This document shows positions 828-7,338 of a DNA stretch of 64,000 nt, piece after piece. The position numbers were made by a program, and so were the translations under genes. The stretch is from Paraglaciecola arctica BSs20135 (lineage in GTDB: Bacteria > Pseudomonadota > Gammaproteobacteria > Enterobacterales > Alteromonadaceae), in assembly GCF_000314995.1 (NCBI RefSeq), contig NZ_BAEO01000025.1, positions 1-64,000 of the forward strand, written 5' to 3'. How positions within the stretch are numbered: the first letter of the stretch is position 1; the number at the start of each line of letters is the position of its first letter. The notes under the pieces are model-generated. The model had not been told where the DNA came from. It saw only the letters and a program-made list of their open reading frames with translations, and searched no databases.

Positions 828-1376
828 TTAGCTACATTTCCTAACCGGTGCGGTTTTATCAAAAAAGATTGATATCTCGGCTACAGTGACCCCGAATTTT
901 TTCATATAAGAGCGATTCATCATGCGGTTTTTGTCCATTAGAAACATCCAGTCGTCGACAAACAGGTCATATTCTGTGTCATCAACCGGCACGCGCAAGG
1001 TGTATTGCCAGTTAAAGGCAGTACCTTGTGAGCCGCCTTTAGCTTGCCCGATAACATCTGCTGCTCCACCTGTAACACTGCCATCGTCGGCAATTTGTAA
1101 ATCCCAGATACGGATTTGTTGTTCACCATCATGGTAATAAAAAGTTTCGTGTAATTGACCTTGATTGCCTTGCCAGGTACCTACTATATCTACGCAAAAG
1201 CGTCTAGTTAGTTTGTTTGAGTAGTCTTGTACTATGCCCCATGCAGTAACTTCTCCATCAAAATAGCGGGGTAAATCGAATTCAGGTGTGGTGTTTTCAT
1301 AGTCATCTAGCGAACTGCTACATGACAAAATAAAAGGGGTCATCAGCACTAAGAGCCAATATTTAATTATCGTCAT
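828..1376 (-). CDS. DUF3833 family lipoprotein
   Basis: The frame is open upstream, but the start chosen is the ATG at 1376 (MTIIKYWLL). It overlaps the previous gene's stop as ATGA, and it places a signal sequence ending in the lipobox ILSC at the N-terminus, followed by a serine-rich linker. The remaining roughly 160 residues (FDGEVTAWGIVQD, DWMFLMD, NRSYMKKFGV) match DUF3833. The family is found beside Cfa-type methyltransferases and DUF1365 proteins in ECF sigma/ChrR clusters, as here. It is the last gene of a five-gene minus-strand operon and probably a membrane-anchored periplasmic protein. A role in lipid binding or modification is inferred from the operon only. Confidence 0.8.
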   Translation of the reverse strand: MTIIKYWLLVLMTPFILSCSSSLDDYENTTPEFDLPRYFDGEVTAWGIVQDYSNKLTRRFCVDIVGTWQGNQGQLHETFYYHDGEQQIRIWDLQIADDGSVTGGAADVIGQAKGGSQGTAFNWQYTLRVPVDDTEYDLFVDDWMFLMDKNRMMNRSYMKKFGVTVAEISIFFDKTAPVRKCS

Positions 1377-1900
1377 TTGTTTAATCCTATGAGTTTGTTG
1401 CGCACTTTGGGATAACTGGCCTTTTCGTCTAACCAAATGCGTAAAAAGCTTGAGCCAAAATTTTTGTCAGTAATTTTGCCTATTGTTTTGCCATTAAAGA
1501 AAAATTCGCTGTGTTGGTTTTTACTAACATTTAGTAGAAGGGAATCGCCTTTTTTGATATTTGGGAATATCTCTGTCAGTAGGGGGATCCATGGGGTCCA
1601 TGTTTCTTGTTTAATGCCTAATTTTTGCCACTCTTCTAAGGTTCTTGCAATTAAATCTTCTGAATCAATATCTCTTAAGTAATCGATTCTTAACACTTGT
1701 GGAAATAGCTCCGCTTGGTACTCGCCTGTTTGGTTATATAAACTGGCGTTGTAGATATCCCAAAACACAACTTGTAGTTTGGCTTCACCTACTTTTTTTA
1801 ACTCAAAAAGTGGATTGGCCATGGCAACCCCTGAAAAAGCTACAGTGTTTAATACAACTAAAAGCCAAAAAATGTTGGATTTAGGAGATAGATATTGCAT
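1373..1900 (-). CDS. Chalcone isomerase-like exported protein
   Basis: This 175-residue protein has a signal peptide (hydrophobic residues 10-28, cleavage near VAMA-NPL). The rest matches the bacterial chalcone-isomerase-like family: VGEAKLQVVFWDIYNASLY near the start, the YLRDIDSEDLIARTLEEW helix, and FFNGKTIGKITD followed by FLRIWLDE. The fold binds fatty acids in plant relatives, which fits a place between a fatty-acyl methyltransferase and a lipoprotein, but no reaction is established for the bacterial members. It lies 14 bp after the cfa-like gene and overlaps the DUF3833 gene by 4 bp, so the genes are probably translationally coupled. Confidence 0.8.
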   Translation of the reverse strand: MQYLSPKSNIFWLLVVLNTVAFSGVAMANPLFELKKVGEAKLQVVFWDIYNASLYNQTGEYQAELFPQVLRIDYLRDIDSEDLIARTLEEWQKLGIKQETWTPWIPLLTEIFPNIKKGDSLLLNVSKNQHSEFFFNGKTIGKITDKNFGSSFLRIWLDEKASYPKVRNKLIGLNK

Positions 1901-1914
1901 GTTATTCCCAATCT

Positions 1915-3168
1915 CTAACGACTAATATTGTTTGTGAATGCAGGTTTGCTGATCACCAATTGCACAGTGCTGATGGTGCGCTCTAAAAAGCCGCCTTCGC
2001 AGTAACTAAAGTAATAACGCCACATATTCATAAAACGATCGTCGTAACCGTCTTTAGCCAAGGGCTCTTTATTTTCGAGTAGTTTGTGATGCCAATCTTT
2101 TAGTGTACGAGCGTAATCAAGCCCGATATCGTGAAGATCGCGGATCATCAAGTCTGTATGTTTTCTCAAATGTTGATTAATTAACAGCTGTGAAGGTAAG
2201 AAACCACCAGGAAAAATATGCTTCTGAATGAAGTCGACACTTTTACTGTAGCTGTCTAAACGGTGGTCGCTGATAGTGATCGCTTGCAATACCATCAAAC
2301 CTTGGTCTTTTAACAGGCTCGAACATTTTTTAAAGAAAGTAGGTAGGTACTCTTTACCTACGGCTTCAATCATTTCAATAGACACTAACTTGTCATACTT
2401 TCCTTCGAGTAATCTGTAGTCTTCTTTCAACAGAGTGATCCTGTCTTGTAAACCTTCTTTATTGATTAAATTTTCAGTGTATTGATGTTGTTCTTCTGAA
2501 ATGGTTGTGGTGGTGACTTTACAGCCATAATTTTTAGCTGCAAATATGGCCAAACCGCCCCAGCCAGTGCCTATTTCGATTAAATGGTCTTCAGGGACCA
2601 ATTGCAACTTGTCACAAATTGCCCGTAGTTTTGTGGTCTGAGCTTGAGCCAGAGTGCTGTCTTGTGATGGGTAGATAGCCGCAGAATACATCATGCTGTC
2701 ATCAAGAAATCGGCTATAGAGTTTGTTGCCTAAGTCGTAATGGGCAGCAATGTTTTTCTTTGAACCTGTTGTCGAGTTTTTGTTAGCAAGGTGGCTAATT
2801 TTACGAATTGGGAAAGATAACCACTGCATTTTGGCCTCCCAACTATCGAGCAAAGGTAAGTTGCGCGCGAAAACTCGAATGACGTTGGTTAAATTTGGAG
2901 TAGTCCATAGGCCTTCTGAAAATGTTTCGCCCGAGGCTATGCTGCCACCAAACAATAAACTTTGGTAAACACTTAAACATTGGATATCAATTTCAGCATG
3001 TAAGTCAGAGTCTTTTTGGCCAAAGGTATCCACCAAAACGCCTTGTTCTTTAATCACCATCTGACCTTGTGGCAAGCTGGCAAACACTTTGAGCATAATG
3101 GTTCTGCACAGCTTGTGCTGCCACGATAAGCTTGAAGACTCAACTAATATTTGTTCTACGTTTGGCAT
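1915..3168 (-). CDS. Cyclopropane-fatty-acyl-phospholipid synthase family methyltransferase
   Basis: This 417-residue SAM-dependent methyltransferase acts on unsaturated acyl chains of membrane phospholipids. Visible are the Cfa signature IAAHYDLGNKLYSRFLD (about 138-155), YSAAIYP, the SAM-binding loop EIGTGWGGLAIFAAK (about 196-210), the SIEMIEAVG segment and the HIFPGG turn. E. coli Cfa is 382 residues long. ECF-linked paralogues of this type often make products other than simple cyclopropanes: in Rhodobacter sphaeroides, genes under sigma-E/ChrR control are needed for methylated and furan fatty acids. Which product is made here is not known. It is the third gene of the FAD oxidoreductase-DUF1365-cfa operon and starts 2 bp after DUF1365 ends. 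Confidence 0.9.
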   Translation of the reverse strand: MPNVEQILVESSSLSWQHKLCRTIMLKVFASLPQGQMVIKEQGVLVDTFGQKDSDLHAEIDIQCLSVYQSLLFGGSIASGETFSEGLWTTPNLTNVIRVFARNLPLLDSWEAKMQWLSFPIRKISHLANKNSTTGSKKNIAAHYDLGNKLYSRFLDDSMMYSAAIYPSQDSTLAQAQTTKLRAICDKLQLVPEDHLIEIGTGWGGLAIFAAKNYGCKVTTTTISEEQHQYTENLINKEGLQDRITLLKEDYRLLEGKYDKLVSIEMIEAVGKEYLPTFFKKCSSLLKDQGLMVLQAITISDHRLDSYSKSVDFIQKHIFPGGFLPSQLLINQHLRKHTDLMIRDLHDIGLDYARTLKDWHHKLLENKEPLAKDGYDDRFMNMWRYYFSYCEGGFLERTISTVQLVISKPAFTNNISR

Positions 3169-3170
3169 AG

Positions 3171-3899
3171 TTATTTTTTACCTTGTACTGAGTGGGAATA
3201 AAAAGGCACGCCTTTTATAAATAATTTGAGGGCTTGCCAATAAATACCAAAGACGGTTTTTAACGTCATGCTAGGAATACTAAGTAATACGTTAAAAAGG
3301 CTTTTTGAGTTCAGTTCAACTCGTGACAAATTAAGACTAGCAACAAAATGTTTGACGTCTTTGTGGCAAGAAAGAGTGAGTTTTAGTGAGTCATCTGGTT
3401 GTGAAATTTTCCACTTATACTGCATATCCATTGGATTAAACGGTGATACATGTAAGGCTTTCGCAGAATCATCTTGTTTGGCTAAATCAACCAAATAACA
3501 ATGCCTTTCATTCCAAGGTGTATTGCTCACTTCAGCTAATAAGTGACTAAAAGTACCATCATCTTGCTGTAAATAATAAAAATTGACTGGACTAAAGTAC
3601 AAACCAAAAGTCCGTGTTTGTCCGAGTAAATAAACGCTACCTGTGAGTGGCTCTTGTGCCAGTTCTGACATTTTATGGAGTACTGATTGTTTCAAAGGTA
3701 TAGCGGCATTACCTAAGTAATCGCTGCGTTTAAAGCGTATTGGCGCCCATGATTTAGATGAAAATCCTTTAACTTGGGTTTCAATTAAATCTATTTCATC
3801 AAGGTTTAACCAGAGTAAAAATATCTGATAACTAAAGGCATGTTTTTTAGGTACCAATCGACTGTGAAATACACTTCCTTTATATATAGCGCTTAACAT
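3171..3899 (-). CDS. DUF1365 family protein
   Basis: This 242-residue protein matches DUF1365. Conserved features are SAIYKGSVFHSRLVPKKHAFSY at the N-terminus (H12, R14, H20), the FGLYFSPVNFYY motif, EVSNTPWNERHCYLV, and HVSPFNPMDMQYKW. DUF1365 proteins almost always sit between an FAD amine oxidase and a Cfa-like methyltransferase, and no biochemical function is established. No signal peptide is seen. Its ATG overlaps the stop of the FAD gene (TAATG), and the cfa-like gene follows after 2 bp, so the three are probably made together. Confidence 0.88.
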   Translation of the reverse strand: MLSAIYKGSVFHSRLVPKKHAFSYQIFLLWLNLDEIDLIETQVKGFSSKSWAPIRFKRSDYLGNAAIPLKQSVLHKMSELAQEPLTGSVYLLGQTRTFGLYFSPVNFYYLQQDDGTFSHLLAEVSNTPWNERHCYLVDLAKQDDSAKALHVSPFNPMDMQYKWKISQPDDSLKLTLSCHKDVKHFVASLNLSRVELNSKSLFNVLLSIPSMTLKTVFGIYWQALKLFIKGVPFYSHSVQGKK

Positions 3900-5164
3900 T
3901 AGAGCTGCTCGCCAAATGACTTACACACATCTAAAGCACTGCGAACGCCATCTTCGTGGAAACCGTTGTACCAATATGCGCCGCAAAAATGCATCCCTTG
4001 TTTGCCTGATATTTCTGCCCATCTTGCTTGGGCTGCAATAGTCTGATGATTAAACTGTGGGTGCGCATATTGGTAGCTGCCGAGTATTTTTGCTGGATCA
4101 ATATCTTTAGTGTTGTTTAAGGTCACGCAGAAGGTTGTTGTAGATTCTATGTTTTGCAGAATGTTCATGTTGTAGGTTAATACTGCTGGAGCTTGAGATT
4201 CACCTTCATGGCCTTTTATCAGATAATTCCAACTTGCCCAGGCCAGTTTTCTGACAGGTAAAACGCTGTCATCAGTATGCAGAACCACTTCATTTTTAGC
4301 ATAAGGCATGTCCCCTAAAATTTCTGACTGGCTTGAGCTTGGTGTGGCAAGTAAGGCTAAGGCTTGGTTACTATGACAAGCAAAAATAACCTCATCGAAC
4401 AGATACTCGGTTCCGTCTTGTAAAAGAACTAACTTCTGCTTATCGCTTTCTATTACTGATTTTACTGGGCTATTAAGCTTTATATTATTTTCAAAACCAG
4501 CAATAAGAGGTTTAATGTATTCTCTAGAACCACCAATAATGGAGCGCCACTGGGGCCTGTCTGTGATATTAAGTAGTCCATGATTATTGAAAAAGCGCAG
4601 AAAAAATGTAAAAGGAAAGGCTTTGATATCCTCTAAACTAGTCGACCAAATAGCGGCACACATGGGCAAAATATAGTTGTAGGTGAAGTCGTCACTGAAT
4701 TGATGTTGAATTAGAAACTCATGTAATGTTTTTTTGCCATAATCAGTTTTCTCAGTTGCTGCTTTTTTACATATTTTATTAAATTTCAGAATGTCTCTTA
4801 CTATTCGCCAAAATTTTGGACGAAATACATTTCGCCTTTGAGCAAATAGGCTATTAAGTGTATTACCGTTGTATTCTAGGTTTTGTGAAAGGTTTTTAAC
4901 GCTAAAGCTCATTTCGGTAGCTTGAGATGGCACCCCAATTTTGTTCATTAATTTAATAAAGTTTGGATAGGTCCAATCATTAAAAACAATAAAGCCCGTG
5001 TCTATTGCATAGTGTTTGCCGCTCACTTCCACATCTTTAGTAGCGGTATGGCCACCAATATAGTTATTTGCTTCAAAAATAGTCAGGTCATGATGCTGGT
5101 GGAGTAGATGTCCACAAGTAAGCCCTGAAATTCCTGAACCTATTATTGCAATCTTTTTACCCAT
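3899..5164 (-). CDS. FAD-dependent amine oxidase/desaturase-like protein (NAD(P)-binding Rossmann)
   Basis: The protein opens with the dinucleotide-binding motif IAIIGSGISGLTCG and an acidic second strand (LTIFEANNYIGGHTAT). Its C-terminus holds the FAD contact GKQGMHFCGAYWYNGFHEDG. It belongs to the amine-oxidase-like flavoprotein family that includes phytoene desaturase relatives. The open frame extends to 5197, but the ATG at 5164 (MGKKIAIIGSG) is preferred: AGGA lies 6 nt upstream, and the Rossmann motif then starts at residue 5 as is usual. First gene of the five-gene operon, 80 nt after the -10 of an ECF-type promoter. A role in oxidising an acyl chain made by the Cfa-like enzyme is inferred from context. 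Confidence 0.87.
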   Translation of the reverse strand: MGKKIAIIGSGISGLTCGHLLHQHHDLTIFEANNYIGGHTATKDVEVSGKHYAIDTGFIVFNDWTYPNFIKLMNKIGVPSQATEMSFSVKNLSQNLEYNGNTLNSLFAQRRNVFRPKFWRIVRDILKFNKICKKAATEKTDYGKKTLHEFLIQHQFSDDFTYNYILPMCAAIWSTSLEDIKAFPFTFFLRFFNNHGLLNITDRPQWRSIIGGSREYIKPLIAGFENNIKLNSPVKSVIESDKQKLVLLQDGTEYLFDEVIFACHSNQALALLATPSSSQSEILGDMPYAKNEVVLHTDDSVLPVRKLAWASWNYLIKGHEGESQAPAVLTYNMNILQNIESTTTFCVTLNNTKDIDPAKILGSYQYAHPQFNHQTIAAQARWAEISGKQGMHFCGAYWYNGFHEDGVRSALDVCKSFGEQL

Positions 5165-5244: not shown

Positions 5245-5274
5245 TAGATACCTAAATTAGCAAACTAGAGATCA
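5245..5274 (-). promoter_or_regulatory. ECF-sigma (ChrR-linked) type promoter for the FAD/DUF1365/cfa operon
   Basis: On the minus strand, TGATCT (-35, complement of 5269-5274) is followed by exactly 18 nt and TATCTA (-10, complement of 5245-5250). Transcription would start near 5238 and leave a leader of about 74 nt. The -35 and the 18-nt spacer match two other sites, ahead of the LON gene and the sigma gene. The -35 also resembles the TGATCC element known for the sigma-E/ChrR pair of Rhodobacter. Confidence 0.6.
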
Positions 5275-5303
5275 CTTAATAGCTGAATTTTATTTTTTAT
5301 TTT

Positions 5304-5333
5304 CGATCTAAAACTGATAATCAGAAGTATTAA
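5304..5333 (+). promoter_or_regulatory. ECF-sigma type promoter for the LON-domain gene
   Basis: CGATCT (5304-5309), an 18-nt spacer and TATTAA (5328-5333) repeat the pattern of the divergent promoter 30 bp away. The expected start near 5339 leaves a 35-nt leader before the ATG at 5374. The -35 begins with C rather than T, so it may be weaker. Confidence 0.5.
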
Positions 5334-5373
5334 CAACCATTGAACACACAGAACACACAAAGTTAGCCTTTAT

Positions 5374-5952
5374 ATGAACTCTTATTTCGAGACCCCTTTA
5401 TTTCCGCTGTCGGCACATTTATTGCCAGGTGGAAGAATGTTATTGAGAATATTCGAACCTAGATACGTGCGTATGGTGAAAGAAGCATGTGCGGCTGAAA
5501 CGGGGTTTGGGATGTGTATGTTGAATGCCCAAGGAGACAAAGAGCAAAACCAGCATATATATTCTATAGGCACTTACGTAAAGGTAATAGATTTTGATTT
5601 GTTGGATGATGGCTTCTTAGGCGTCATTGTTGAGGGACAAAAATGTTTTGAAATTATGTCTATAACCACCGAAACTGATGAGTTAAGGATAGGTAAATGT
5701 ATTTGGTTAGCAGAATGGTCTACGCAGTCTACAGAGCAATCCATTGCGCCAATTGATGAAAGGTTAATGGATGTTTTTGATAAGTATCCAGAACTACAAA
5801 GCTTATACCAAAATCCCAAATTTAATGATCCCATATGGGTGATTTATCGCTGGTTGGAATTATTACCAGTTGATGCTGAGAAAAAACAACAATTTTTGCA
5901 ACAAAAAGACTGTGTGAAAGCTTTAGATTTTCTGACACAATTGGTTGAGTGA
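5374..5952 (+). CDS. LON peptidase N-terminal (substrate-binding) domain protein
   Basis: This 192-residue protein consists only of a Lon N-terminal-like domain: ETPLFPLSAHLLPGG, LRIFEPRYVRMV, GFGMCML, GTYVKVIDFDLLDDGFLGVIVEG. There is no AAA+ or protease domain, so it is not a protease by itself. Stand-alone LON-domain proteins are known, but their targets mostly are not. It is divergent from the lipid-modification operon, and its TGA stop is also the first three bases of the sigma gene's -35 element, so the LON and sigma genes are closely tied. A role in presenting oxidised or damaged proteins to a protease is a guess. Little Shine-Dalgarno sequence is visible before the ATG. Confidence 0.85.
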   Translation: MNSYFETPLFPLSAHLLPGGRMLLRIFEPRYVRMVKEACAAETGFGMCMLNAQGDKEQNQHIYSIGTYVKVIDFDLLDDGFLGVIVEGQKCFEIMSITTETDELRIGKCIWLAEWSTQSTEQSIAPIDERLMDVFDKYPELQSLYQNPKFNDPIWVIYRWLELLPVDAEKKQQFLQQKDCVKALDFLTQLVE

Positions 5953-5979
5953 TCCTTTAACCAATCAAACTAGTATTAC
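5950..5979 (+). promoter_or_regulatory. Autoregulatory ECF promoter of the sigma factor gene
   Basis: TGATCC (5950-5955), an 18-nt spacer and TATTAC (5974-5979) form the best -35 of the three sites in this locus. The -35 overlaps the TGA stop of the LON gene. The start of transcription would fall at about 5985, which favours the ATG at 6013 over the in-frame TTG at 5986 as the sigma gene's start. Confidence 0.6.
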
Positions 5980-6012
5980 TTACTATTGTCAATTTTTCGA
6001 TGGTGTAAGCAA

Positions 6013-6627
6013 ATGTTAGTTGGAATATCTCTGGAAACGAAGCAAATTAATTCCATTAAACCAATAGAATGTGCTGAAGAAATGTCTGGATATTTACGTA
6101 TAGTAGCGAGTGATCGTTGTAAGCTGTCGTTTTCCAAGATCTTTAGTTACTTTGCACCCCGTTTACGTTCATATGCGCTAAAACAAATGGGTAACGAAGC
6201 CCTTGCAATGGAGCTAGTGCAAGACACTATGTCTAATGTATGGCAAAAATCTCATCTGTTTAACTCTGAAAAAGGCTCGCCTTCTACTTGGATTTTCACT
6301 ATCGCAAGAAATCTTCGATTCGATATGCTCAGGAAGCAGAGAAATCGCAAGGAAGATGTGTGCTCAGATGACCTTTGGCCTATTTTGTGTGAACAAACGC
6401 CAGACGCAAATGAGGTATCTTTAGATCATCAAGTGACTATGGATGAGATTGGGGTATTACTTGATACCTTGCCTGAAAAACAAAAGTTGGTGATTGAAGC
6501 GATTTATATAGACGGTAAATCCCAGCAAGAAGTTGCGGACGAATTCGATATTCCACTAGGAACAGTAAAATCTAGAACCAGACTTGCATTACAACGTTTA
6601 AAAGAGATGTTAAAAGACGATGATTAG
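6013..6627 (+). CDS. ECF RNA polymerase sigma factor (RpoE/ChrR-partner type)
   Basis: This is a group 4 sigma-70 factor. Region 2 is visible from LSFSKIFSYFAPRLRSYALKQ through LVQDTMSNVWQKSHLF and STWIFTIARNLRFDMLRK. Region 4 ends in the helix-turn-helix QQEVADEFDIPLGTVKSRTRLALQRLK. The frame opens at a TTG at 5986, which would lie at the predicted transcription start, so the ATG at 6013 is chosen. The ATG at 6082, just before region 2, is also possible. The gene overlaps the anti-sigma gene by 8 bp, the usual arrangement for a sigma factor held inactive by its partner. Rhodobacter homologues respond to singlet oxygen and organic hydroperoxides; here the signal is inferred to be photo-oxidative stress. 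Confidence 0.88.
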   Translation: MLVGISLETKQINSIKPIECAEEMSGYLRIVASDRCKLSFSKIFSYFAPRLRSYALKQMGNEALAMELVQDTMSNVWQKSHLFNSEKGSPSTWIFTIARNLRFDMLRKQRNRKEDVCSDDLWPILCEQTPDANEVSLDHQVTMDEIGVLLDTLPEKQKLVIEAIYIDGKSQQEVADEFDIPLGTVKSRTRLALQRLKEMLKDDD

Positions 6628-7306: not shown

Positions 7307-7338
7307 AAAAAAAAACGCGCTGAAAGCGCGTTTTTTTA
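7307..7338. terminator. Bidirectional terminator between chrR and bamD
   Basis: A 6-bp stem (ACGCGC/GCGCGT) with a TGAAA loop is bounded by an A-run on the left and a T-run on the right. It sits between two convergent genes, so it can end transcription from both. Confidence 0.9.

Follow-up and report, generated by a model that had tools for sequence, protein, structure and literature searches.

Three predicted ECF11-type promoters form the probable core of a sigma/ChrR stress regulon in a Paraglaciecola-like bacterium

Described RpoE/ChrR systems and the genes of the locus

In Shewanella oneidensis, the RpoE2-ChrR system comprises a sigma/anti-sigma pair like the one found in the stretch of 64,000 nucleotides analyzed here (the window), and its predicted regulon contains cfa and photolyase (PMC4336711). 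Table 1 of that paper gives TGATCC-N16-CGTATT before rpoE2 and TGATCA-N16-CGTAAT before a Lon-domain gene, and transcription starts were mapped there for rpoE2 and pgpD. Two features differ from the window, as cfa belongs to the photolyase operon SO_3386-SO_3374, whereas the FAD/DUF1365/cfa operon of the window is divergent from the LON gene, and the -10 begins with C, whereas the window sites have G or A (PMC4336711). Similarly, PSPTO_1043/1042 of Pseudomonas syringae is associated with TGATCC-N16-CGTA promoters, and the photolyase, FAD, DUF1365-type (ortholog of RSP_1090) and cfa genes share one locus, although the gene order is another one and CGTA is present in 18/18 promoter rows among those listed (PMC5507510). 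The ChrR/sigma-E response of Vibrio cholerae, in which blue light acts through ChrR, has the motif TGATC-N16-18-CGTAW, but a larger gene set is reported, with 159 ChrR-dependent genes (PMC5241685). Finally, RpoE/ChrR of Rhodobacter sphaeroides (PDB 2q1z, 2z2s) is homologous to the sigma factor and ChrR of the window, with aligned zinc-ligand residues, although it comes from an alpha-proteobacterial phototroph; its core regulon includes rpoE-chrR and furan-fatty-acid genes (review PMC6852236). A literature search aimed at Alteromonas and Paraglaciecola gave no paper on an ECF11 regulon there among the matches listed, and no ECF11 promoter letters were found in the accessible parts of PMC3817407 and PMC10880074.

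The three sites described below belong to this already described bacterial light and oxidative-stress regulon. As the Shewanella paper already lists sigma and Lon promoters of such form (PMC4336711), the cluster of the window is a further example of a known system. Very probably, this cluster forms the core of a stress regulon governed by an ECF11 (R. sphaeroides RpoE-type) sigma factor and ChrR, and its host is a Paraglaciecola-like bacterium. Judging from sequence comparison, the three sites are almost certainly promoters that belong to the adjacent ECF11 sigma factor of the RpoE/ChrR type. Comparison with relatives supports the predicted promoters, the sigma/ChrR assignment, the putative regulon members including photolyase, and the proposed sigma start at ATG 6013.

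The sigma protein reached 339 bits against NF008890 (cutoff 284), with a match running from ATG 6013 at profile position 2, and among ECF sigmas of known structure its best match was PDB 2q1z_A (E 5.4e-32), followed by SigL (E 2.8e-15). R. sphaeroides RpoE thus outranks the other solved ECF sigmas and a ChrR gene lies alongside, the two features by which ECF11 membership was judged. The ChrR protein reached 159.6 bits against TIGR02451 (cutoff 124.5) and matched PDB 2z2s_B with E 2.6e-17. Its 8/8 zinc ligands (H5, H30, C34, C37, H148, H150, E154 and H184) align with the same residue of R. sphaeroides ChrR, where the ligands are H6/H31/C35/C38 and H141/H143/E147/H177 (PMC6852236). These profile and structure matches bear out the sigma/ChrR assignment made in an earlier note on this DNA from the sequence alone. 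The same note had preferred the downstream ATG at 6013 as sigma start, in agreement with the beginning of the NF008890 match and with 57/80 named loci (the second set below) having no alternative upstream in-frame start. The TTG at 5986 was ruled out as start, because the profile match starts at ATG 6013 and the predicted transcription start would lie about 4 nt before this TTG.

Table 1. Genes and predicted signals of the sigma/ChrR locus (positions in the window)
Feature	Position	Strand	Details
DUF3833 protein, overlaps chalcone-isomerase-like gene	828..1436	-	Pfam PF12915
Chalcone-isomerase-like protein, 14-nt gap after cfa	1373..1900	-	Pfam PF16036
Cyclopropane-fatty-acid-synthase-type methyltransferase (UfaM/cfa-like)	1915..3168	-	Pfam PF02353, E 5.7e-82
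DUF1365 protein (UfaO-like)	3171..3899	-	Pfam PF07103, E 9.2e-77
FAD amine-oxidase-like protein (UfaD-like), first gene of the operon	3899..5164	-	Pfam PF01593, E 5.5e-22; putative UfaD ortholog
FAD/DUF1365/cfa operon promoter, ECF11-type, predicted	5248..5274	-	-35 TGATCT 5274-5269, N16, -10 GGTAT 5252-5248
LON-domain gene promoter, ECF11-type, predicted	5304..5330	+	-35 CGATCT 5304-5309, N16, -10 AGTAT 5326-5330
Stand-alone LON substrate-binding-domain protein, 192 aa	5374..5952	+	Pfam PF02190, E 2.2e-24
sigma-chrR promoter, ECF11-type, predicted	5950..5976	+	-35 TGATCC 5950-5955, N16, -10 AGTAT 5972-5976
ECF sigma factor, R. sphaeroides RpoE/ECF11 type, 204 aa, start ATG 6013	6013..6627	+	NF008890, PDB 2q1z_A
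ChrR-family zinc anti-sigma factor, 223 aa	6620..7291	+	TIGR02451, PDB 2z2s_B; overlaps sigma gene
Likely terminator after chrR, palindromic, called on both strands	7309..7337	+	13-pair stem and T tract

Letters and register of the three sites

The sites had been written as TGATCT-N18-TATCTA (5274-5245, minus strand), CGATCT-N18-TATTAA (5304-5333) and TGATCC-N18-TATTAC (5950-5979), and all of them are present in the sequence; the overlap claimed for the third is also there, its -35 starting at the TGA that ends the LON gene (5950-5952). As promoters the three sites stood up to comparison, while the placement of the -10 as TAT behind an 18-nt spacer did not, since in relatives the conserved core is GTA and a two-base shift to NGTA(T/A), with a 16-nt spacer, is needed. 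The N18/TAT and N16/xGTAT readings are the same letters counted with an offset of two bases. From this comparison, the general form of the three predicted promoters is (T/C)GATC(C/T)-N16-(C/A/G)GTA(T/A). The transcription starts predicted from them lie close to 5241 on the minus strand and to 5337 and 5982 on the plus strand. GATC and GTA blocks conserved at 16-nt spacing correspond to the ECF11 promoter (TGATC -35, 16-nt spacer, CGTA -10), with the departures that the leading C of CGTA is G or A at all three window sites and that one -35 starts with C. A -10 of the form TATNA at 18 nt was ruled out, as relatives keep GTA at 16 nt and not all three sites fit the pattern. Indeed, the scan pattern suggested in the earlier note, YGATCY-N18-TATNA, finds 2/3 sites and misses the first (TATCT); run over the genome, it gave 62 matches vs 46 in a reversed control.

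We also asked how often such sites are expected. In the window, YGATCY-N18-TAT occurs 9 times vs 1.60 expected and YGATCY-N17-GTAT 5 times vs 0.32 expected (of these five, three are the sites and two fall within ORFs), both enrichments being partly circular as the patterns were taken from the sites themselves. An independent matrix was built from 15 published promoters, namely 5/5 Shewanella RpoE2 rows and 10/18 P. syringae rows, the 8 weaker rows being dropped. Scored with it, the three sites take the 3rd, 11th and 38th places within the window, the site of the sigma gene being the top scorer among them, and matches scoring at least as high number 4, 12 and 38 vs means of 1.55, 5.4 and 23.85 in 20 dinucleotide shuffles. 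Genome-wide, YGATCY-N16-NGTA showed no enrichment, with 115 matches vs 172 in the reversed control. Sequence alone therefore separates the sites from chance weakly, and singly none is significant against the published matrix. The unusual feature is their arrangement, with three sites within 0.7 kb, on the correct strand, each preceding one of three transcription units.

Conservation in relatives and the divergent operon

As sequence alone is weak, conservation in relatives is decisive for the sites. We searched 60 genomes (the window's own and 59 relatives) with the sigma protein, which had matches at E up to 0.001 in 57/60 of them, orthologs only in part, and kept the best 30 loci, window included, as a first set. 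In each locus, the scan covered 120 nt ahead of LON and as much ahead of sigma, as well as 260 nt on the divergent strand. The LON gene was found beside sigma in 25/30 loci and was not found there in the remaining 5/30. Results showed the two-block pattern before LON in 22/25, before sigma in 24/30 and on the divergent strand in 14/25, which makes 60/80 positions, while 143 letter-permuted patterns gave a mean of 0.97 and a maximum of 14 over 80 positions. When the window was set aside together with the five relatives closest to it, 16/19, 18/24 and 8/19 remained, respectively. A second set was made of the best 80 of 118 related stretches in named genomes, which are close relatives by construction and may repeat a few genomes of the first set. 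There the pattern was found before LON in 61/80, before sigma in 46/80 and on the divergent strand in 74/80 (181/240 in all), against a mean of 2.6 for permuted patterns, among which the highest count, 50, came from a pattern that equals the LON site on the opposite strand. Matrix ranks and genome-wide counts below the reversed control are what one would expect if the sites were chance matches in AT-rich sequence, but conservation at this level in both sets leaves that explanation with hardly any credit. The conservation check proposed in the earlier note therefore came out in favor of the sites.

In aligned relatives, the GATC and GTA blocks are kept amid mostly diverged sequence, and the spacer of the matches in both sets is mostly 16, with a minority of 15. 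In 19/25 first-set and 23/80 second-set loci, LON ends on the TGA with which TGATC begins, and conservation of the -35 at this stop codon is partly coding constraint, while conservation of the -10 is not. The first base of the -10 has different counts at each promoter of the named loci, with C 58 and A 3 in the 61 matched LON sites, C 33, A 10 and T 3 in the 46 sigma sites, and G 31, T 30, A 9 and C 4 in the 74 divergent sites; the promoters thus favor different bases at this position, a preference that may tune their strength.

The ChrR gene is present in 80/80 named loci, and the LON gene lies beside sigma-chrR in all 80 as well, so that a LON-domain gene is a frequent partner of the pair. 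The Pfam scan of the 192-aa LON protein found PF02190 as sole family and no protease domain. On the divergent side, the Pfam families of the window genes fit the furan-fatty-acid gene set (FAD desaturase, DUF1365 oxygenase, cfa-type methylase), and UfaD, UfaO (which carries DUF1365) and UfaM have been assigned to furan-fatty-acid synthesis (J Biol Chem, PMC7380195). The cfa-type protein does not reach the cutoff of any NCBIfam equivalog listed. The FAD/DUF1365/cfa operon is probably a furan-fatty-acid pathway, with a furan fatty acid as its presumed lipid product, and on spacing the chalcone-isomerase-like and DUF3833 genes may be further members.

The head of this operon varies. A FAD gene was found in 27 of 28 relatives searched, as first gene in 6, behind one 240-aa ORF in 1 and behind two ORFs in 20; the two ORFs are SnoaL-like and short-chain dehydrogenase by Pfam in L134 only and were recognized elsewhere by length. 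The laxer pattern NGATCN-N15-17-NGTA precedes the head in 6/6 FAD-first, 1/1 one-ORF and 11/20 two-ORF loci, and hence the new head gene in 12/21 loci with one or two extra genes. The other 9/20 two-extra-gene loci fail the divergent pattern, 8/9 keeping TGATC without a matching -10 (by eye); no TGATC was seen by eye before the operon head of L142. TGATC is present in the divergent region of 80/80 named loci, and TGATCY-N16-GGTA in 7/7 loci (window counted) in which the FAD gene adjoins LON.

These comparisons fix the promoter register of the ECF11 regulon for Alteromonadaceae. Beyond the register, the LON partnership and the variable autoregulation, they confirm a known system.

Autoregulation and distant members

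We infer that the neighbouring sigma factor reads the three sites as follows. ChrR would keep the sigma factor inactive, and a photo-oxidative signal would remove ChrR, upon which sigma-RNA polymerase would bind the three promoters. It would then transcribe the sigma-chrR pair, in a positive feedback, as well as the LON-domain gene, the divergent FAD/DUF1365/cfa operon and the photolyase gene elsewhere in the genome.

A sigma site that would permit the autoregulation proposed in the earlier note is regular in Paraglaciecola but not universal in the family. Paraglaciecola-titled loci have the sigma site in 10/10 and the LON site in 10/10, and their divergent site passes the pattern in 6/10. By contrast, no own site of the sigma gene could be found in 34/80 named loci, corresponding to 24/35 Alteromonas, 4/13 Glaciecola and 6 others. 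The autoregulatory site is therefore a property of lineage. Among these 34 loci, 27 keep both the LON and divergent sites and the other 7 the divergent site alone, and any TGATC within 120 nt before sigma occurs in only 1. Moreover, CGTAGAAT precedes the sigma gene, within 90 nt of its start, in 10 of the 34, and in Alteromonas LON and sigma lie 85-169 nt apart in the 24 loci without sigma site vs 53-143 nt (median 69) in the 11 that have one. Together, CGTAGAAT and the longer gap in Alteromonas without own site (among L194-L247) suggest a replaced promoter. This site can be absent where other regulon sites are kept, so that the autoregulatory loop can be studied as a trait that varies in evolution.

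Two other readings of the sites have to be weighed here. The first is that they serve another factor, be it a repressor, a different ECF sigma or the housekeeping sigma-70. A search of the genome with the sigma protein gives 11 matches at E up to 0.001, one of them the protein itself, and CGTAGAAT in the 10 Alteromonas loci could be a sigma-70-like -10. However, a consensus scan found no sigma-70-type promoter at the three sites, the motif fits published ECF11 promoters (PMC5507510, PMC4336711), and in relatives the sites stay with the sigma-chrR cluster, so that we consider another factor very unlikely. The second reading is that LON, sigma and chrR are transcribed together from the LON promoter, with a minor part for the site in front of sigma. 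LON and sigma run in one direction, 60 nt apart, and LON sites persist in most loci that lack the sigma site, as counted above; the constancy of the sigma site in Paraglaciecola and its best score among the three of the window speak against it, and we regard such an arrangement as unlikely, while giving it some weight. As a further reading, the LON-domain protein could be a dedicated part of the switch, for example an adaptor speeding the loss of ChrR, that with the furan-fatty-acid genes closes a second positive feedback loop; this could let some Alteromonas dispense with the ECF11 promoter of sigma while keeping those of LON and the operon. We put this forward as a speculation that is rather improbable.

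The earlier note had also guessed photolyase as a member of the regulon, and the gene of this genome indeed carries a site. Ahead of its one PF00875 photolyase stands AGATCT-N16-AGTAT, 55 nt from the first residue of the ORF, the true start being uncertain as the GTG is not kept in relatives. In 5/5 close relatives (82-85% identity), [A/C]GATCT-N16-AGTA was found at 52-54 nt. The other 24 photolyase loci among the matches listed have TGATC-N16-CGTA at 46-81 nt in 11 cases, a weaker, differently spaced or farther match in 8, and no site within 400 nt, even by a laxer pattern, in 5.

Candidate members were also looked for with TGATCY-N16-VGTAW, which gave 34 matches genome-wide vs 44 in the reversed control. 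Two of the 30 loci listed are the window's own sites and 23/30 overlap an ORF of at least 80 aa; candidates free of such an ORF are L063, L069, L075, L076, L079 and L089. A TGATCC-N16-CGTAA at 1501-1527 of L072 (G000:C24:7277), flanked by a minus-strand ORF and by a gene that looks metK-like by eye, recurs in 4/4 other genomes searched; as it lies directly against the start of that ORF, its membership in the regulon is doubtful. We also noticed that the photolyase of the relative G001 (L152, L174) contains in-frame stops and was matched in two pieces, with its promoter site present.
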